From: Desulfobulbus sp.
GTDB lineage: Bacteria; Desulfobacterota; Desulfobulbia; Desulfobulbales; Desulfobulbaceae
NCBI GenBank assembly: GCA_003604995.1
Contig: QZJD01000023.1
Location: forward strand, 1 to 34,029
Direction: 5' to 3'
Length of the DNA stretch: 34,029 nucleotides
Shown here: in pieces, positions 23,450 through 33,632 of the stretch
Numbering within the stretch: the stretch's first letter is position 1
How the letters are laid out: each line of letters starts with the position of its first letter
The notes under the pieces: generated by a model
The model's database searches: none
Told to the model about the DNA's origin: nothing
What the model saw: the letters and a program-made list of their open reading frames with translations, nothing else
Position numbers and translations under genes: made by a program

Positions 23450-24271
23450 ATGAACACCAGGCACATGATCTTGGGTTTGTTGGCAATGCTTTTTGCCGTC
23501 TGGCCGCTCACCACCGGTCAGGCCGGGGCAAAGGATTTTGACCGCATGGGCGACGTCAGCGTGGAGATTGTCTCCGATGACCGGGGGCCCCTGCCCCGGT
23601 ACGACGCCGGTTTCGGCAACCAGCGCAACCGGCGGAGCTACGTGGCTGCTCAGGATGGCGAACGCTACCGGATCTGGGTCAGCAACCGGGGCGGCACGAC
23701 GGTCGGGCTGGTCATCGCGGTGGACGGCCGCAATATCATCTCCGGGGAGAGGTCGGACCTCGGGCCGAATGAGCGGATGTATGTGCTGGGGCCCTACCAG
23801 ACCGGCCAGTACGAGGGCTGGCGCACCAGCCGCAACCAGGTGAACCGGTTCTACTTCACCGGCATGAGCGATTCCTATGCCGCCGCCTGGGGCGACAGCA
23901 CGGCCATGGGGGTCATTGCGGTGGCGGTGTACGAAGGCCGGCACGGGGAGCGGGATGAGCCCTGGACCTTCCGGTCGGAAAAAGGCCGGCCGGACAGGCA
24001 AATGGATGCACCCATGGCCAGGGGGCAACGGGAAGACCCCGGCACCGGTTACGGCGAGACCGAGTGGTCGCCGAGCCGGCCGGTGCAATTCTTCCCGAAG
24101 GAGCGGCCGTCGGTCAGGGAATTCATCAAGTATGAATGGCACGCCACCCTGTGCCGGCGGGGGATCACCGACTGCCGGGAGTACGGGCGCGGTAACCGGT
24201 TCTGGCCGGAGTACCGGCGGCACGGCGGTTTTGCCCCGCCGCCACCGCGCCGGCCGTTCCTGGGACGGTGA
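23450..24271 (+). CDS. Exported protein of unknown function, Arg/Gly/Pro-rich tail
   Basis: The 273-residue product begins with a signal peptide (MILGLLAMLFAVWPLTTGQAGA, cleavage near 27). Residues about 30-165 look like a beta-rich domain (DVSVEIVSDDRG, YVAAQDGERYRIWVSNRGG, VGLVIAVDGRNIISGE, NRFYFTGMSDSYAAAWGD, MGVIAVAVYEG). A polar Arg/Pro-rich region follows and ends in PPPPRRPFLGR. There are two Cys (LCRRGITDC). I do not recognise the family; extracytoplasmic location is the only firm statement. AGGAGG lies 7 nt before the ATG, a strong ribosome site. Confidence 0.75.
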   Translation: MNTRHMILGLLAMLFAVWPLTTGQAGAKDFDRMGDVSVEIVSDDRGPLPRYDAGFGNQRNRRSYVAAQDGERYRIWVSNRGGTTVGLVIAVDGRNIISGERSDLGPNERMYVLGPYQTGQYEGWRTSRNQVNRFYFTGMSDSYAAAWGDSTAMGVIAVAVYEGRHGERDEPWTFRSEKGRPDRQMDAPMARGQREDPGTGYGETEWSPSRPVQFFPKERPSVREFIKYEWHATLCRRGITDCREYGRGNRFWPEYRRHGGFAPPPPRRPFLGR

Positions 24272-24403
24272 GTGAAAACATGGCAGGGAAGGCGTTTCCT
24301 CTTCCTGAGGGGCTTGGGGGTGGCAGGAGGATAAGTTCCCCGTTTTCCGTCCGCCGGCCTAAAAATGTGTCAAAAAAGACATAGATTCGACCGGTTAAAG
24401 AGC

Positions 24404-24432
24404 TTGACACCCAAAGAACGGACTCGGATAAT
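24404..24432 (+). promoter_or_regulatory. Promoter of the aldehyde ferredoxin oxidoreductase operon
   Basis: TTGACA (24404-24409), a 17-nt spacer and GATAAT (24427-24432) form a near-consensus sigma-70-type promoter on the plus strand. Transcription should start near 24439-24440, which is exactly where the MITE-like element begins. Confidence 0.65.
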
Positions 24433-24443
24433 AAAAAGGGATA

Positions 24444-24561
24444 GAGCCTCTTTCAAAATGAACGACGTCGCGAGATCGAGCAAAAAATATTCTGGGCAAA
24501 AACGACGCCGTCCAGGAGATTTTTAGCCGATCGGAGCAGGTGGTCATTTACAAAGAGGCTC
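24444..24561. mobile_element. MITE-like palindromic element, copy 1 (118 bp)
   Basis: The ends are imperfect 18-bp inverted repeats, GAGCCTCTTTCAAAATGA at left and its near-complement at right (16 of 18 match). The interior continues as a looser palindrome. GATA occurs directly before (24440-24443) and directly after (24562-24565), as expected for a 4-bp target duplication. There is no coding capacity, so it would need a transposase supplied in trans. It shares most of its sequence with copy 2 in the same orientation. Confidence 0.75.
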
Positions 24562-24636
24562 GATATCTTCCGTTTTCTCAGCACGTTTTTGCGGCGAGGT
24601 AATTGAAAGGCATGCCATGCCAGCATAGCGATCCTT

Positions 24637-24672
24637 CGGGATACTCCGGCGGGTACCTGCCGGAGTATCCCG
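24637..24672. promoter_or_regulatory. 36-bp near-perfect palindrome in the oxidoreductase leader
   Basis: GGGATACTCCGGC (24638-24650) and GCCGGAGTATCCC (24659-24671) are exact inverted copies, extended by one outer C-G pair, and the loop contains GGTACC. It starts about 100 nt before the oxidoreductase ATG. As RNA it would be a very stable hairpin; as DNA it could bind a dimeric regulator. It has no T-run for termination. Confidence 0.55.
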
Positions 24673-24735
24673 CCGCAATGTTCATGCCGGCATTCCAGGC
24701 CGAAAAACGACAAATGCGCATTCAGGGAGGAATCT

Positions 24736-26469
24736 ATGGCTGACAGGATTTATCGGGTTAACATGTCTGATTTAACGGTGCGGGTCGAGGATGTCCGGGA
24801 ACAGTGGTCCGGTCTCGGTGGCCGCGGCCTGACCTCGACCATTGTCGCGGCCGAGGTGGAGCCGACCTGTCATCCCCTTGGACCGCGCAACAAGCTGGTT
24901 TTTGCGCCCGGCCTGCTGAGCGGGACCGTGACCGCCAACTCGGGCCGCCTCAGTGTCGGCGCGAAGAGTCCGCTCACCGGAACCATCAAGGAAAGCAACG
25001 CGGGTGGCACCGCGTCCCAGCTCCTGGCCCGGCTCGGGCTCAAAGCCCTGATCATCGAGGGTCAGCCGGAAAAGGAAAGCCTGTACAGCCTGCATGTCAC
25101 TGCCGACGGGGTGGCCATCGCCGAAGAGCCCGACCTGGCCGGCAAGGGGAACTTTGCGGTGGTCAACGTTATGCTGGAGCGCTACGGCGAGAAGACCGGG
25201 GTGATCTCCATCGGCCCTGCCGGCGAAATGAAAATGGCCATCGCCAACATCTCGGTCAAGGACCCGGAGGGCAAGGTGCGCAGCGCCGGCCGCGGCGGAC
25301 TCGGGGCGGTCATGGGGGCCAAGGGCGTGAAATGCATTACCATCAGCGTGCCCAGGGAAGCAGCGGTGCCCATCGCCGAACCGGAAAAGTTCAAGGCGGC
25401 GGTCAAAATCTTTGCCAAGGCCCTGCTCGAGCATCCGGTCAGCGGCCAGGGGCTGCCCACCTACGGCACCGCGGTGCTGATCAACGTGATCAACGAGGCC
25501 GGCGGCCTGCCCACCCGGAATTTCCGTTCCGGCCAGTTTGAGCAGCACGACGCCATTTCCGGCGAGACCATGCATGACCTCATCGAGGAGCGGGGCGGGA
25601 AAATACGGCACGGCTGCCATGCGGGCTGTGTGATTCAATGCTCCCAGGTGTTCAACGATGCGGGCGGCAAGTACAAGACATCCGGCTTTGAATATGAGTC
25701 CATCTGGGCCATGGGGGCCGACTGCTGCGTGGACAACCTGGACCAGATCGCCGAGGCGGACAGCCTGATGGACGATATCGGCGTCGACACCATCGAGACC
25801 TCGGTGACCATGGGGGTTGCCATGGAGGGAGGCCTGCTGCCCTTCGGCGACGGCGCGGGCATCATCCGGATACTCGACCAGGACGTCCGCACGGGCACGC
25901 CGCTGGGGCGGCTCATCGGCGGCGGCGCGGCGGTCGTCGGCAAGGCGTACGGGGTCACCAGGGTGCCGGTGGTCAAGAACCAGGCGATCCCGGCCTATGA
26001 TCCGCGGGCGGTGAAGGGTATCGGCATCACCTACTGCACCAGCACCATGGGCGCGGACCACACCGCCGGCTATGCTGTGGCGACCAATATCCTGAAGGTC
26101 GGCGGCGATGTCGATCCCCTGAAAAAAGAGGGGCAGGTCGAGCTGTCGCGCAATCTGCAGATCGCCACCGCGGCCCTGGACACCGCCGGCCTCTGCATCT
26201 TCGTCGCCTTCCCGGCCCTTGATATTCCGGAGGCGTTCACCGCCATCGTCGACATGATCAACGCCCGTTTCGGCATCAGCCTGACCGCCGACGATGTCAC
26301 CGAACTGGGCAAAAATATCCTGCGCACGGAGCACGAATTCAACCTGGCGGCGGGCTTTACCAACAAGGACGACCGGCTGCCGGAGTTCTTTTCCACTGAA
26401 CTGCTGCCGCCGCACAATGTCATCTGGGATTTCACCGGGGAGGAGATCGACGAGTTCTGGAATTTTTAA
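24736..26469 (+). CDS. Aldehyde:ferredoxin oxidoreductase (tungsten/molybdenum pterin enzyme)
   Basis: The 577-residue product belongs to the AOR family, cytoplasmic enzymes that oxidise aldehydes to acids, or reduce acids, with ferredoxin through a bis-pterin W/Mo centre and one [4Fe-4S] cluster. The N-terminal domain (about 1-205) has the GLGGRGLTS and SAGRGGLGAVMGAKGVK pterin-binding signatures. The cluster Cys are C294, C298, C302 and C487 (DTAGLCIF). The first pair has three residues between them (CHAGC), whereas the classical motif has two. FEYESIWAMG (318-327) and GADHTAGYA match conserved active-site stretches. GGGAGG precedes the ATG. It is followed by sulfur-carrier and activating-enzyme genes that fit pterin cofactor assembly. 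The substrate is unknown. Confidence 0.93.
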   Translation: MADRIYRVNMSDLTVRVEDVREQWSGLGGRGLTSTIVAAEVEPTCHPLGPRNKLVFAPGLLSGTVTANSGRLSVGAKSPLTGTIKESNAGGTASQLLARLGLKALIIEGQPEKESLYSLHVTADGVAIAEEPDLAGKGNFAVVNVMLERYGEKTGVISIGPAGEMKMAIANISVKDPEGKVRSAGRGGLGAVMGAKGVKCITISVPREAAVPIAEPEKFKAAVKIFAKALLEHPVSGQGLPTYGTAVLINVINEAGGLPTRNFRSGQFEQHDAISGETMHDLIEERGGKIRHGCHAGCVIQCSQVFNDAGGKYKTSGFEYESIWAMGADCCVDNLDQIAEADSLMDDIGVDTIETSVTMGVAMEGGLLPFGDGAGIIRILDQDVRTGTPLGRLIGGGAAVVGKAYGVTRVPVVKNQAIPAYDPRAVKGIGITYCTSTMGADHTAGYAVATNILKVGGDVDPLKKEGQVELSRNLQIATAALDTAGLCIFVAFPALDIPEAFTAIVDMINARFGISLTADDVTELGKNILRTEHEFNLAAGFTNKDDRLPEFFSTELLPPHNVIWDFTGEEIDEFWNF

Positions 26470-26494
26470 GCTTTGCCGGGAATGGAAATCTCAT

Positions 26495-26671
26495 GAGCCT
26501 CTTGCAAAATGAACGACGTCGCGAGATCGAGAGAAAAATATTCCGGGCAAGGATGCGTTGTGAAATCGCCCGGAAGCAGAGTAGCGCTCCGTTGAGGACG
26601 ATTTCACAAGGAAGACGCCGTCCAGGATATTTTTAGCCGATCGGAGTAGATGGTCATTTTGAAAGAGGCTC
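26495..26671. mobile_element. MITE-like palindromic element, copy 2 (177 bp)
   Basis: The terminal inverted repeats (GAGCCTCTTGCAAAATGA and TCATTTTGAAAGAGGCTC) match at 17 of 18 positions. TCAT occurs directly before (26491-26494) and after (26672-26675), a 4-bp target duplication different from that of copy 1. The body equals copy 1 plus about 59 extra central bases that form their own hairpin, TTGTGAAATCG (26558-26568) with CGATTTCACAA (26599-26609). It lies between the oxidoreductase stop and the MoaD-like gene, so it is transcribed within the presumed operon. Confidence 0.8.
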
Positions 26672-26716
26672 TCATGTCAGTTCCCATAAAATGATGAAGC
26701 CTGCGACAATGATGAC

Positions 26717-26941
26717 ATGCGGGTAACAATCAGGCTGTTTGCCAACTTCCGGATCGGTCGCTGCAAGCAGGAATCCAGGGAATACGATTCACCGGTAACC
26801 GTCCGCGATATTGTCGAGGAACTGGGGATTCCCGCTCCGGAAGTCGGGATCATCTTCATCAACGGCCGCAACGCCGACATGGACCAGGCGCTGGCGGAAG
26901 GCGACAACCTGTCGCTTTTTCCCCTGGTCGGCGGAGGCTGA
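26717..26941 (+). CDS. MoaD/ThiS-family sulfur carrier protein
   Basis: The 74-residue product has the ubiquitin-like MoaD/ThiS fold pattern (RVTIRLFANFR strand, VTVRDIVEELGI helix, VGIIFINGRNAD strands, EGDNLSLFPLVGGG end). It finishes in Gly-Gly, the site that is adenylated and thiocarboxylated. It would deliver sulfur for the dithiolene of the pterin cofactor used by the oxidoreductase encoded upstream. A thiamine role is less likely in this setting. Its TGA lies 1 nt before the GTG start of the activating enzyme, so the two are coupled. Confidence 0.9.
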   Translation: MRVTIRLFANFRIGRCKQESREYDSPVTVRDIVEELGIPAPEVGIIFINGRNADMDQALAEGDNLSLFPLVGGG

Positions 26942-26942
26942 G

Positions 26943-27776
26943 GTGCGGGAGCTCGTGCAATTTCTCCGCGACCGGTCAACGGGCGGTCTGCTGCCGCTGG
27001 CCGCCCAGACCGAGGCCGCGGTCCGTTACGGCCTGACCGTGCCCCATGTGGAGGAAATCGCCCTGACCTCGGGCATCCTGCCGACCCGCTACCAGAGAAA
27101 CCGGGACATGTTCTCGCTCCCCCAGCAGCTGGCCCTGTTCAGGAGCAGGGTGGCGGTCGTCGGCTGCGGCGGGCTCGGCGGGTACATTATCGAGGAGCTG
27201 GCCCGCTTGGGCATCGGCGGTATCGTCGCCATTGATCCAGATGTGTTCCAGGAGCACAATCTGAACCGACAGCTGTACTCTACCCCTGACCAGCTGGGCC
27301 GGAAAAAAGTGGAGGCCGCCGCGAGCCGGGTTGCGGCGATCAATCCCGCGGTGACCTGCCGGCCGGTGGCGGAAGCATTTGATGAACAGAACGGCCCTGA
27401 ACTCCTGCGGGGGATCGATGTGGCCGTGGACGGGCTGGACTCAATCCCGGCTCGCCTGCTGCTGGCGGAGATGTGCGAACGCCGCGGCATCCCTATGGTG
27501 CATGGGGCGATTGCCGGCTGGTCCGGTCGCCTGGCGACCCAGTTTCCCGGCGACCGGACCCTGGAGCGGCTTTACTCCGGCAACCGTGAACTGCCCGGCA
27601 TTGAAGTCAGGGAGGGCAACCCCTCATTTACCCCGGCGGTGGTCGCCGCGCTTGAGGTGGCGGAGGTCGTCAAGATACTCCTGCGCATCGGCGAGCCGAT
27701 CCGCCACCGGTGCCTGAGCATCGACCTCTTTCATCTCGAATTCGTCGAGATCACCCTGGGCGAGGAACAATCATGA
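26943..27776 (+). CDS. ThiF/MoeB/HesA-family adenylyltransferase (E1-like)
   Basis: The 277-residue product adenylates the C-terminal Gly of a ubiquitin-like carrier. VAVVGCGGLGGYIIEEL (70-86) is the nucleotide loop, D98 binds the ribose, NRQLYS (108-113) is the arginine finger region, and VDGLDSIPARLL (162-173) follows the second conserved Asp. No paired CxxC zinc motifs are seen, unlike typical MoeB. C178 is a possible sulfur-relay Cys. The first 60 residues are an extra N-terminal helical region. The start is GTG at 26943, with GGAGG 5 nt upstream; an earlier in-frame ATG (26811) would lie inside the carrier gene. Confidence 0.9.
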   Translation: MRELVQFLRDRSTGGLLPLAAQTEAAVRYGLTVPHVEEIALTSGILPTRYQRNRDMFSLPQQLALFRSRVAVVGCGGLGGYIIEELARLGIGGIVAIDPDVFQEHNLNRQLYSTPDQLGRKKVEAAASRVAAINPAVTCRPVAEAFDEQNGPELLRGIDVAVDGLDSIPARLLLAEMCERRGIPMVHGAIAGWSGRLATQFPGDRTLERLYSGNRELPGIEVREGNPSFTPAVVAALEVAEVVKILLRIGEPIRHRCLSIDLFHLEFVEITLGEEQS

Positions 27777-28120: not shown

Positions 28121-28444
28121 CTACAGCTTGGCCTGGGCAAGCGCCGGCAGCCTTTGAATCTTCCCTATCGCGCGTGCCGCCGGTGAGTGGGTTAGCTGAT
28201 AAAGGTCCCAGGCCAGCTGCAGATTAAGCCAGAATTGCGCCTCCATGCCAAAAAGTCTTTCCAGACGGAGTGCCGTATCAGGCGTTAGGCCCCGCTTCCC
28301 GTGGATCAGTTCATTCACGCGCGGGTAGGAAACCCCGAGTTTTTCCGCCAAATCACTTTGCGTCATGCGCAGTGGTTTGAGAAACTCTTCCAGCAGCATT
28401 TCGCCAGGATGTGTCGGCGGGCCATTTTTTGGTATGCGAACCAT
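28121..28444 (-). CDS. higA: HigA-family antitoxin
   Basis: The 107-residue product is a HigA-type XRE-family helix-turn-helix protein. It opens with the family hallmark PTHPGEMLLEEFLKPL. The DNA-binding region is MTQSDLAEKLGVSYPRVNELIHGKRGLTPDTALRLERLFG, and a C-terminal helix (QFWLNLQLAWDLYQLT) completes it. It neutralises the upstream toxin and probably represses the pair by binding the palindrome in the promoter. It starts 14 nt after the toxin stop, in the toxin-first order usual for higBA. Confidence 0.94.
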   Translation of the reverse strand: MVRIPKNGPPTHPGEMLLEEFLKPLRMTQSDLAEKLGVSYPRVNELIHGKRGLTPDTALRLERLFGMEAQFWLNLQLAWDLYQLTHSPAARAIGKIQRLPALAQAKL

Positions 28445-28458
28445 CTGCCACCTCCCGG

Positions 28459-28752
28459 TTAATGGTAATCCGTAATTTCAACCTGTTCCGCTCCATCGTC
28501 CGTCCATACAAAGCAAACGCGGAACTGGTCATTAATGCGTATGCTGTGTTGTCCTTTTCGGTCGCCGTGCAGGAGTTCCAGAAAATTCCCTGGCGGAATC
28601 TTCAGCGATTCCAGCGAAATGGCTGCATTGAGCTGGTCGAGTTTCCGCTGTGCCACCCGCCAGAGTTGCCGCGGACAGGTCTGGCGGGCTTCCTTGGAAT
28701 TTTTCCGATCAAAGATATCTTCGGTGCCTTTGCCGCGAAAGGATCTGATCAC
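28459..28752 (-). CDS. higB: HigB-family toxin (RelE superfamily mRNA endonuclease)
   Basis: The 97-residue product has the RelE/HigB layout: MIRSFRGKGTEDIF start, RKLDQLNAA helix, LKIPPGNFLELLHGDRKGQHSIRINDQFRVCFVW core and EITDYH end. The C-terminal His and the Arg of INDQFRVCF are typical. It would cut mRNA on the ribosome when free of HigA. The start is GTG (28752-28750), with AGGAG upstream. Confidence 0.93.
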   Translation of the reverse strand: MIRSFRGKGTEDIFDRKNSKEARQTCPRQLWRVAQRKLDQLNAAISLESLKIPPGNFLELLHGDRKGQHSIRINDQFRVCFVWTDDGAEQVEITDYH

Positions 28753-29288: not shown

Positions 29289-29861
29289 GTGGTAAAGGCG
29301 TTTGCGGACTTTAACGGCTTGGAGATATTTTTTCTCATCTGCGCCGTCATCGGCGGCTTTTTCGTTCTCCTGAAGCTCATCACCCAGTTCACCGGCGGGG
29401 ACAGCGACTCCGCCATCGGGGTGGAAAGCGACATAGACACCCATCACGCGGACTCCGATATCGGCTTCCGTCTGCTTTCCATGCACGGGCTTTCCGCCTT
29501 CTTCATGATGTTCGGGCTGGTCGGCCTTGCCCTCTACCGGCAGAGTCAGGCCGGGATCATCATTTCGATGGTCGGGGCGGTGGCGGCGGGATTGGCCTCG
29601 GTCTGGGTCATCGGCAAGATCTTCCAGGGGGCAGCCCGGCTGCAGTCCAGCGGCACCCTGCGGACCGCGGACGCGGTCAACAGCACCGGCACCGTCTATC
29701 TCACGATCCCGGCAGGGGGGACCGGCCGGGTCAGCATCAATTTCCGCAACCATCTCCGCGAGTTCGACGCGGTCGAGAAAAACGGGGCCGAGATCACCTC
29801 CGGGACCCCGATCCGGGTAGTGCAGGTCAACGCCAATGTCCTGGTAGTGGAACCACTTTAA
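29289..29861 (+). CDS. NfeD-like membrane protein (flotillin partner)
   Basis: The 190-residue product has three predicted TM helices (about 12-33, 63-83, 87-108). A C-terminal beta-barrel of OB-fold type (about 118-190) follows (GTVYLTIPAGGTGRVSIN, GAEITSGTPIRVVQVNANVLVVEPL), as in NfeD/YqiJ proteins. The family usually sits beside SPFH/flotillin genes, as here, and is thought to help flotillin membrane domains. The start is GTG, with AGGAGG 6 nt upstream. The flotillin gene follows after 16 nt. Confidence 0.85.
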   Translation: MVKAFADFNGLEIFFLICAVIGGFFVLLKLITQFTGGDSDSAIGVESDIDTHHADSDIGFRLLSMHGLSAFFMMFGLVGLALYRQSQAGIIISMVGAVAAGLASVWVIGKIFQGAARLQSSGTLRTADAVNSTGTVYLTIPAGGTGRVSINFRNHLREFDAVEKNGAEITSGTPIRVVQVNANVLVVEPL

Positions 29862-29877
29862 TAAGCAAGGAGCCGTC

Positions 29878-31440
29878 ATGATCGATTTCTGGATTTTCCC
29901 CGTTGCCGCATTTCTCATTCTTGTCGTCTCGACCATTACCTTTCTCGCCTCCCGCTACAAGCGCTGTCCCTCGGACAAGATCCTGGTCATCTACGGCAAA
30001 GTCGGGGTCGGCCAGTCCGCCAACTGCATCCACGGCGGCGGCACCCTTGTCTGGCCGCTCATCCAGGATTACGCCTATATCAGTCTCACGCCGATGACCA
30101 TCGGCATTCCGCTGCAAAAGGCCCTTTCCCTGCAGAACATCCGCATCAACGTGCCTTCGACCTTCACGGTCGGCATCAGCACCGAGCCCGAGGTCATGAC
30201 CTCGGCCGCCGAGCGCCTCCTGCACCTCTCCCAGCAGGAAATCGAGGAAATGGCCAAGGAAATCATCTTCGGCCAGCTGCGCCTCACCGTCGCCTCGCTG
30301 ACCATCGAGCAGATCAACCAGGACCGCGAGAGTTTTCTCGAAGCGGTGCGCAAAAACGTGTCGCCGGAGCTTAACAAGATCGGCCTCTTCCTCATCAACG
30401 TGAACATCACCGACATCACCGACGAGTCCGGTTATATCGACTCCATCGGCAAGAAGGCGGCGGCCGAGGCAATCAACCAGGCCAAGGTCGACGTGGCCGA
30501 GCAGGAAAAAAAGGGTTCCATCGGCGAGGCCGAAGCAACCAGGGAAAAGGAGATCCGGGTGGCGGAGAACGTGGCCGCCTCCGAGAAGGGGAAGAAAAAG
30601 GCCGAGGCCGATCAGCGCATCTTTGTCATGCAGCAGGAGGCGGAAGCGACGATCGGCGAGGCGGCGGCGGACCGGGAAAAGGAGATCAAGGTGGCGGAAA
30701 ACCTTGCCGAGTCGGCGAAAGGCCAGAAAAAGGCCGAGGCGGACAAGCGGATTTACGTGCAGCAGCAGGAGGCCGAAGCGGTGACCGGCGAGAACAGGGC
30801 CAAGGCAGATATCGCCAATGCCGACGCCGAACTGGCCGTGAAACAGGCCGCCGCCCTGCAGCTCGGCGAAGTGGCGCGGCGGGAGGCCGAGGTCGAGATC
30901 CAGAAGGCCCAGTACAAGGCGGAGCAGGAGCGGCTCACCGCCGAAGAGGTTGTCCGCCAGGAAATCGACAAGCGGAAGATCGAGATCGCCGCCGAGGCCG
31001 AGGCCGAGAAAACCCGGCGGGAGGCTAAGGGTCAGGCCGACGCCATCCTCCTCAAATACCAGGCAGAGGCCGAGGGCGTCCGCCAGGTGCTGGAAAGCAA
31101 GGCCGCCGGTTATCTCAGCCTGGTCCAGGGCTGCAACGGCGACGCCAAGGCCGCGGCCACCCTGCTCATGACCGAGAAGATCGAGCAGATCGTCCAGCTC
31201 CAGGTGGAGGCCATCCGCAACATCAAGATCGACAAAGTCACGGTCTGGGACCCGGCCGGTGGAAGCAAGGACGGAACCGCCACCGCCAATTTCCTCTCCG
31301 GGCTGGTCAAGAGCCTGCCGCCCCTGCACGACGTGGCCGGCATGGCCGGCATCGAACTGCCTAAATACCTTGGCGAGATCTCGAGCAAGGATGCGCCGCC
31401 GCCATCGGCAGACAAGCAGAGAGCTTCTGATAAGGAGTGA
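29878..31440 (+). CDS. Flotillin-like SPFH protein with a 44-residue tandem duplication
   Basis: The 520-residue product has an N-terminal membrane helix (about 5-24) and an SPFH domain (about 30-200: CPSDKILVIYGKVG, IRINVPSTFTVGI, LNKIGLFLINVNITDIT). A long Ala/Glu/Lys coiled-coil (about 195-420) rich in AEAE repeats follows, then a C-terminal region (SLVQGCNGDAKAAATLLMTEKIEQIVQLQ). Flotillins form large oligomers that order the membrane. Within the coil, residues 216-259 and 260-303 are near-identical 44-residue units. It is cotranscribed with the NfeD-like gene. Confidence 0.93.
   Translation: MIDFWIFPVAAFLILVVSTITFLASRYKRCPSDKILVIYGKVGVGQSANCIHGGGTLVWPLIQDYAYISLTPMTIGIPLQKALSLQNIRINVPSTFTVGISTEPEVMTSAAERLLHLSQQEIEEMAKEIIFGQLRLTVASLTIEQINQDRESFLEAVRKNVSPELNKIGLFLINVNITDITDESGYIDSIGKKAAAEAINQAKVDVAEQEKKGSIGEAEATREKEIRVAENVAASEKGKKKAEADQRIFVMQQEAEATIGEAAADREKEIKVAENLAESAKGQKKAEADKRIYVQQQEAEAVTGENRAKADIANADAELAVKQAAALQLGEVARREAEVEIQKAQYKAEQERLTAEEVVRQEIDKRKIEIAAEAEAEKTRREAKGQADAILLKYQAEAEGVRQVLESKAAGYLSLVQGCNGDAKAAATLLMTEKIEQIVQLQVEAIRNIKIDKVTVWDPAGGSKDGTATANFLSGLVKSLPPLHDVAGMAGIELPKYLGEISSKDAPPPSADKQRASDKE
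30523..30786 (+). repeat. Two in-frame 132-bp tandem repeats inside the flotillin gene
   Basis: Unit 1 (30523-30654) and unit 2 (30655-30786) encode 44 residues each. Shared blocks include REKEI(R/K)VAEN, KKAEAD, and QQEAEA. A third, diverged start (GENRAKAD) follows at 30787. It looks like an internal duplication that lengthens the coiled-coil. Confidence 0.8.
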
Positions 31441-31601: not shown

Positions 31602-32855
31602 ATGCAGAGGTTACGATACAAGAGACTTGAGATTCGCTACGCGGTGTTTTTCCTCTTTGTCCTGACGCTTAGCGGCTGCGCGGGGAAGGATGCTGAGGGA
31701 GCGCGCTATCGGCATGCGAGTCGCTTAGGCACGCTGTCCGGCAAAGGCATGGTGATTTACGCCATTGGTCCTGAGGAGTTTCCCCAGGGGGGAAGCTTTG
31801 TCGCTATCCAGGATGCCCTGCCGTCGAGTGAAGGCGCGCAGATGTTGCGTGACCAGGTGCTCACGGACGTTACGATAGCGAAGACCGTGAACGATTTAGG
31901 ACTTCCGGCAGCTATCGGCTTGGTGTCCTCCGGCGCAGGTCAAGCGCAGCGCTTCGCCATGTTCTACAGGACGCCCCGGCGTTCGCTTGTGCTTCAGCGC
32001 TCATCAATGAGTGCGCAGTGGCTCTCATTGAGTCAGCTCTACGAGAGCCGCATTGTTGCGGATCTGCCGAATGTACCACAGTCGGTCCGACGTCTCGCGT
32101 TTCATGAAGATTTACCTGCCTCGCCATGGCCGGTGACGATTCCACCCGACGTGCGCGACGCATTCGCCGTTCCGGCCGAACCTGCCGCCCCAGTCTCCGC
32201 GGTGGATGGTCATGACTACGTCGCAGTGGCCGATGACCTGATGGCACGCCTACTGCCCACGGTAACCGTCGAGAATAGGCAGCGCGCCGAGGCGATGCTC
32301 GCCAAACTGGAGCCGGTCGCGGAAGTCGAGGGACTCCATTGGAGAATGATGGTGATCAGCGGGGAGGGGGCAATGGGCTTCGGGGTGCCGGACGGCACGC
32401 TGATCGTGAGCGACGGGCTTGTGCAAGCGCTCGACGATGCCGAACTCACAGCGGTGATTGCGCATTTGATGGGCCATGAGCGGTACCAGCATGCGCGTGC
32501 CGCAGCGCGCCGGCGCGACATTCTGTCAGTGTTAACCCTTGTCGGTGGTTCGCTCTCTCTTGCGGGAGGTGCGATGGGATCATTCTTGATCCCGACCGGG
32601 GGCTATCTGGCGCTGATTGCGAGTCCCCAGTTCGGCTATACGCAGACAGAGGAAGTCGAGGCTAACGCCGCCGCCGCTTTGATGCTGAGCAAGACGAACC
32701 AGGCGCCCGGCGAACTCTTTGAGGCGATGGTGAAACTGTCAGGTAGGGGACAGGAGGGGACGCTGGCATTCGACACTCTGCATCATCTTTCGGACTCGAC
32801 AATTCTCCAGTACGGGTTAATGCTTGACGCCGGGCTGAGCGGCAAACAGCCTTAA
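31602..32855 (+). CDS. Lipoprotein resembling M48 metallopeptidase, catalytic Glu missing
   Basis: The 417-residue product has a lipoprotein signal (FLFVLTLSGC, lipidated Cys26). A region of about 200 residues that I do not recognise follows, then an M48-like domain (about 215-390: FGVPDGTLIVSDGLVQALDDAELTAVIAHLMGH). The HExxH zinc motif reads H288-L-M-G-H292, so the catalytic Glu is Leu. The EAD motif with the third zinc ligand reads E353-A-N. Zinc ligands may remain, but peptidase activity is not expected. A hydrophobic stretch (LSVLTLVGGSLSLAGGAMGSFL) follows the motif, as in M48 proteins. It may be a scaffold or assembly factor. GGGAG precedes the ATG. Its codon use looks less GC-biased than that of its neighbours. 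Confidence 0.8.
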   Translation: MQRLRYKRLEIRYAVFFLFVLTLSGCAGKDAEGARYRHASRLGTLSGKGMVIYAIGPEEFPQGGSFVAIQDALPSSEGAQMLRDQVLTDVTIAKTVNDLGLPAAIGLVSSGAGQAQRFAMFYRTPRRSLVLQRSSMSAQWLSLSQLYESRIVADLPNVPQSVRRLAFHEDLPASPWPVTIPPDVRDAFAVPAEPAAPVSAVDGHDYVAVADDLMARLLPTVTVENRQRAEAMLAKLEPVAEVEGLHWRMMVISGEGAMGFGVPDGTLIVSDGLVQALDDAELTAVIAHLMGHERYQHARAAARRRDILSVLTLVGGSLSLAGGAMGSFLIPTGGYLALIASPQFGYTQTEEVEANAAAALMLSKTNQAPGELFEAMVKLSGRGQEGTLAFDTLHHLSDSTILQYGLMLDAGLSGKQP

Positions 32856-33242: not shown

Positions 33243-33632
33243 TCACCAGAGAGTTTTCGCCCCATACTTCCCAAATATTTGATCCGCCGTTACGATGGTT
33301 ATCTTTTCCACCATTGCTTGGGCGATCAGGAGCCGGTCAAAGGGGTCCCGGTGGTGAAAGGGCAATTTTTCGTTCCTGGCCGCATGACGCAACTCGATGG
33401 GCAGCAGGGCGAAACTGTTGGCCGCCAGTTGTTCGGTAACAAAACGTTCAACTGACTTGGCCAGCCGCAGTTTGCCGAGGCTTGACTTGATCGCCATTTC
33501 CCAACAACTGGCCATACTGAGACAGCATTCGTTATTCGGATCGGCAATGGCCCGACGGGTTGCGGCCGTGAGATTCGCATCGTCGGTCACCCACCACAGG
33601 AAGACATGCGTGTCAAGAAGGAGACGGGGCAT
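33243..33632 (-). CDS. PIN-domain toxin, VapC-type ribonuclease
   Basis: The 129-residue product has the PIN-domain acidic residues D7 (LLLDTHVFLWW), E45 (SCWEMAIKSSLGKL), D99 (HRDPFDRLLIAQA) and D117 (VTADQIF), which bind Mg/Mn for RNA cleavage. It sits directly after its antitoxin with a 1-nt overlap (33632), the antitoxin-first order normal for this type. Confidence 0.93.
   Translation of the reverse strand: MPRLLLDTHVFLWWVTDDANLTAATRRAIADPNNECCLSMASCWEMAIKSSLGKLRLAKSVERFVTEQLAANSFALLPIELRHAARNEKLPFHHRDPFDRLLIAQAMVEKITIVTADQIFGKYGAKTLW

Follow-up and report, generated by a model that had tools for sequence, protein, structure and literature searches.

A short mobile element, the 118-nt form of a MITE, adjoins the predicted transcription start of an aldehyde:ferredoxin oxidoreductase operon in an uncultured Desulfobulbus, and a second copy of 177 nt lies between the first two genes of the same operon. 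As the best overall explanation, and one towards which we lean with some conviction, we propose the insertion of a selfish MITE with a post-transcriptional effect of the RNase III type. The window, meaning the whole stretch of 34,029 nucleotides analysed here, is contig C22 of a 2.64-Mb assembly (108 contigs, 74% complete).

The operon and its promoter

The oxidoreductase gene (24736-26469, + strand, 577 aa) encodes the Pfam domains AFOR_N and AFOR_C, has aldehyde:ferredoxin oxidoreductases as its closest solved structures (PDB 9mqx, 1aor), and ends in a TAA at 26467-26469. It is followed on the same strand by a gene for a MoaD/ThiS-like protein (26717-26941, 74 aa; Pfam ThiS and Ub-Mut7C), in an order shared with congeners, and then by one for a ThiF/MoeB-like adenylyltransferase (26943-27776; Pfam ThiF), of which the mechanical open reading frame starts at 26811 and the GTG at 26943 is the inferred start. 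The operon is probably tungsten- or molybdenum-dependent.

Upstream of the oxidoreductase, a -35 hexamer TTGACA (24404-24409, + strand) and a -10 hexamer GATAAT (24427-24432) are separated by 17 nt and constitute a strong sigma70-type promoter matching 11 of 12 consensus positions. From the position of the -10, transcription is predicted to start 6-9 nt downstream, at 24438-24441. Of 37 genomes, 14 (the present one included) hold an orthologue of the oxidoreductase, and both hexamers are identical in all three congener loci with enough upstream sequence (L211, L212 and L214). In these loci TTGACA-17/18-GATAAT lies 224, 213 and 208 nt, respectively, before the orthologous ATG, and no further site reaching 10/12 occurs in the 450 nt preceding that codon; the corresponding distance in the window is 303 nt, or 181 nt if the insertion is subtracted. 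The surrounding block (24366-24432), which includes an upstream TGTCAAAA..CATA stretch, attains a best ungapped identity of 48/67 with L211 and 49/67 with L212, as against 26-32/67 in 12 other loci. No such promoter was seen in the 184 nt of upstream sequence available for a fourth congener locus (L213), nor upstream of the ATG in ten more distant orthologue loci. Given this independent conservation in congeners, the promoter is, judging from sequence, almost certainly real, which is the strongest support for the key assumption of the original prediction, namely that oxidoreductase transcripts begin immediately before the element.

The reverse orientation also offers a promoter-like site. On the minus strand (24456-24428), TTGAAA from the MITE end and a host TATTAT are spaced by 17 nt, match 10 of 12 positions and overlap the oxidoreductase -10. 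As a family trait, an outward hybrid promoter using the TTGAAA of the terminal repeat as its -35 was not convincing: over 441 borders, 18 outward -10 boxes occurred at the three fitting offsets combined, with approximately 5 per offset at neighbouring offsets nearer the element.

Two insertions in one operon

Copy 1 occupies 24444-24561 (+ strand) and is flanked by a duplicated GATA at 24440-24443 and 24562-24565; the end of the -10, the duplication and the first base of the element thus fall exactly where the original prediction had placed them. Relative to the 177-nt form it carries a 59-nt internal deletion between CAAGGA repeats. Its + strand folds at -50.8 kcal/mol (z -6.4; none of 200 shuffles equally stable), with a stem broken by internal loops. 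Since the predicted start lies at or just before the duplicated GATA, the insertion appears to have left the promoter whole. Copy 1 begins 11 nt past this conserved promoter and lies 174 nt from the oxidoreductase start codon, and the sequence between it and the ATG gave no further promoter-like site scoring 10/12 or more; the transcript should therefore open with the 118-nt hairpin, as had been proposed.

Copy 2, the full 177-nt form, occupies 26495-26671 (+ strand) between duplicated TCAT sequences (26491-26494 and 26672-26675). It begins 25 nt past the oxidoreductase TAA, bearing out the claim of another hairpin just after the stop, and folds at -75.7 kcal/mol (z -6.8). At the promoter, L211, L212 and L214 have no MITE, the L213 sequence being too short to judge there; in the gap between the oxidoreductase and moaD-like genes it is missing from all four congener loci.

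The leader remaining downstream of copy 1 contains a 16-bp hairpin (24637-24672, + strand) without a T run on its 3' side. A different short GC palindrome was noted at a similar place in L212 and L213, and none was seen in L211. A riboswitch in the leader was ruled against, as Rfam gave no match to a known riboswitch or leader RNA at gathering score in the window; the best hit of the leader search had an E value of 1.7.

Several genes further along the window were also noted. Adjacent HTH and HigB-like toxin genes on the minus strand (28121-28752; Pfam) likely form a HigBA-type toxin-antitoxin pair, and a PIN-domain protein encoded on the same strand (33243-33632; Pfam) is a possible VapC-like toxin. 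An NfeD-like gene (below cut-off) and a flotillin/SPFH gene lie in tandem at 29289-31440, and after them comes an M48 peptidase gene (31602-32855; all Pfam).

A MITE family and its partner insertion sequence

Both ends of the element carry an 18-bp terminal inverted repeat, GAGCCTCTTKCAAAATGA, the right end of copy 1 having two mismatches. With up to two mismatches allowed, this pattern matched the own genome 106 times, whereas a reversed-pattern control matched 0 times. Pairing ends in the fetched stretches gave 41 candidate elements, of which 36 were kept; those dropped were one duplicate reading of a copy and three of odd length, all four lacking a duplication, and one, 183 bp long, whose duplication was of 3 bp. 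The 36 elements measure 118-178 bp (176-178 bp in 28, 130-132 bp in five and 118 bp in three), and 31 have target site duplications of 4-6 bp. All but two (34/36) lie outside genes as predicted by a codon-usage script, and their flanks are AT-rich (0.587 vs 0.486 at random intergenic positions). Among aligned 118-bp copies, those on contigs C22 and C31 belong to one subtype and that on C21 to another, which suggests that the short form arose at least twice. Its sequence features (terminal inverted repeats, duplications, dispersed short copies without a transposase gene, and an autonomous relative sharing the ends) mark the element as a true MITE family, in agreement with the name first given to it.

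The family extends well beyond this assembly. Of 257 genomes in the order, 46 (from 24 of 69 genera) carry its exact 18-base end pattern, and a scan of genome contigs returned at least 105 stretches with element ends. Among the 105 listed, many come from Desulfobulbaceae, Desulfocapsa and Desulfurivibrio assemblies, and 42 match the 177-nt consensus, many of them across the whole of it at 90-95%, some in the terminal repeat only. Also listed was Desulfopila aestuarii DSM 18488, in which a transposase fragment adjoins the same terminal end; this was the starting point for an insertion sequence (IS) search. Relatives of the transposase were found in 8 of 115 genomes, two congeners among them, and the same search gave no transposase match in the own genome, where the MITE family may be inactive or the IS may be absent from an incomplete assembly.

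A complete IS of 1,290 bp was located in the congener G001 (L191:1441-2730). It shares the 18-bp ends exactly, is flanked by TTAA on either side and contains a single 380-aa ORF; its ends, duplication and transposase are as expected for the mobiliser of the family. A second congener, G037, holds several 1,296-bp IS copies with the same ends; duplications were seen at L192, L201, L203 and L205 (the last an element of 1,391 bp), and none at one copy (L199). The transposase scores above cut-off for Pfam DUF772 and DDE_Tnp_1. Its best NCBIfam scores are for IS1182 (72.8 bits; cut-off 270) and IS5_4 (62.4 bits; cut-off 140), and as both are well under their cut-offs we term the IS IS5/IS1182-like, not a member of either. 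From these shared ends, the MITE is probably mobilised in trans by this IS5/IS1182-like element. Two long-copy candidates, L139 and L146, were set aside, as this transposase does not lie between their ends. A piece of a related transposase was observed in a Paracoccaceae stretch (L150).

The palindrome itself appears to be conserved. In 48 copies of exactly 177 nt, picked for equal length and spread from 85 distinct copies of 174-180 nt, both partners have changed at 12 of 54 consensus pairs, amounting to 62 cells vs 20.5 in shuffles and at most 27 in slid controls; the shuffles leave relatedness among copies in place, which weakens the test. On this sequence comparison, the palindrome is maintained by compensatory changes across species, and the selection involved could act on DNA, through transposition, rather than on RNA.

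Placement of the elements

That one operon holds two copies is statistically unremarkable. Three element pairs lie within 2.1 kb of each other among the 36 elements, compared to 1.0 expected (P 0.08), and neither copy occurs in any assessable congener locus; the copies thus need not be a designed pair.

The proximity of copy 1 to a start point raises the question of whether the transposase prefers the start points of active sigma70 promoters, perhaps as melted or polymerase-bound DNA. In the own genome, a promoter of 10/12 or better points into the element at five of 72 borders, its -10 ending 8-13 nt away, against 0.30 expected from AT-matched intergenic controls. The enrichment was first seen with a range of 3-16 nt (0.31 expected, unmatched controls), and the choice of distance bin followed inspection of the data. 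At 9/12, the earlier, non-held-out set of 280 borders gave 12 cases vs 3.5 expected (own genome 6/98, other records 4/160, IS and relatives' loci 2/24). A test fixed beforehand, on 159 new borders from other genomes, yielded two cases at 10-13 nt and 9/12 vs 2.08 expected by column permutation (P 0.61), and at 10/12 one case vs 0.25 expected (P 0.23). For two other own-genome cases, the glycogen phosphorylase and a flavodoxin-like gene, a look for conserved promoters in relatives gave no information, the upstream regions not being homologous. As the preset test on new borders did not confirm it, we consider such a preference improbable. If true, elements of this kind would recurrently become the first part of mRNAs, a bacterial counterpart of start-site-directed integration, which is known from yeast Ty3.

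What the hairpins may do

We envisage that a selfish MITE landed a few bases past the start point used by an old and conserved promoter, duplicating 4 bp of its target. The duplicated GATA would have kept promoter and start point intact, so that transcription continues, with the leader lengthened from approximately 175 to approximately 300 nt and now opening with the 118-nt hairpin. A second, independent insertion would have put the 177-nt hairpin into the gap that separates the oxidoreductase gene from the moaD-like gene. If, as the sequence implies, both elements are transcribed through, RNase III or another nuclease may cut or trim the hairpins and so alter how long the leader, the oxidoreductase segment and the downstream segment last relative to one another. 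RNase III processing would be the likeliest and best-precedented effect, a guess from precedent, and copy 1 may be a poor substrate because internal loops interrupt its stem. Any direct effect on translation would be small; computed changes in start-codon accessibility are small and depend in direction on the exact start base.

The element might instead be a neutral passenger that landed by chance in AT-rich intergenic DNA near a start and is transcribed without measurable effect on the operon. We give this a minor though appreciable share of the probability: the location of 34 of the 36 elements outside predicted genes, their AT-rich flanks (0.587 vs 0.486) and the little-altered start-codon accessibility all agree with it. 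Set against this, however, the hairpin can hardly escape transcription from a conserved promoter 11 nt before the element, and similar hairpins do change transcripts in Neisseria (PMC2649163). An improbable rival is that the hairpin shields the mRNA from 5'-end-dependent decay: starting 3-6 nt into the transcript, it would, through pairing of the duplicated GATA with a downstream TATC, leave few 5' nucleotides unpaired. The minimum-energy fold does pair GAUA with UAUC, and with the MITE in place most of the initial nucleotides are partly paired for starts at 24438-24440; yet for those same starts the 5' end of the empty allele is predicted to be about equally or more paired, while with a start at 24441 both alleles have three nucleotides unpaired, such that the effect would hinge on one base of start choice.

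The original prediction is supported in the nature of the element and in its position just past a conserved promoter; the control of stability or termination that it offered is conjectural. Very stable hairpins might be supposed to stop transcription at one or both elements, uncoupling the oxidoreductase from moaD/thiF, but no intrinsic-terminator-like site (GC stem and U run) was found on the + strand in 24200-24800 or 26300-27000, including after either copy, and a stop at copy 1 would leave the operon without transcription from the one promoter recognised for it. We therefore regard attenuation or termination as very improbable, and retain selfish insertion with RNase III-type processing as the preferred account.

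Comparison with known systems

Mobile elements of such a kind are already known, and the present IS or MITE may already carry a name. What the locus adds is a clean natural example, outside Neisseria and the enterobacteria, of a mobile hairpin as the predicted 5' end of a metabolic operon mRNA, with the assets of empty sites in congeners and a conserved promoter. The MITE family is spread across several genera of the order alongside an IS with shared ends, and compensatory changes preserve its palindrome; it is therefore well suited to the question of whether such hairpins act through RNA or are mere substrates for transposition.

In the open-licence literature, no MITE of this order was found described; the only case was one from Geobacter, another lineage, in a review (PMC10969869). 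This element, Chunjie of Geobacter uraniireducens, resembles ours in its many intergenic copies of varied size, one of them inside an operon, and differs in being 178-235 bp per the review (PMC10969869). The present element does not belong to the Correia family: its ends read GAGCCTCTTK... and its 4-bp duplications vary, as opposed to the Correia ends and TA duplication given in PMC2229807.

The nearest worked-out case for a hairpin at the 5' end is nonetheless the mtrCDE leader of Neisseria meningitidis, where a Correia element (CREE/NEMIS) lies between the native promoter and the genes, is transcribed and is cut by RNase III (PMC2649163). It too is a short palindromic MITE within an mRNA leader, between a native promoter and its operon; it differs in its end sequences, in the IHF site of its long form and in the promoters at its ends, and the RNase III cleavage demonstrated for it serves as precedent only for the present MITE (PMC2649163). 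For copy 2, the nearest such case is ERIC in Yersinia, likewise a co-transcribed intergenic repeat between genes, though of 127 bp, with 7-bp ends and TA; its reported effect is an orientation-dependent destabilisation of the upstream transcript (PMC2229807).
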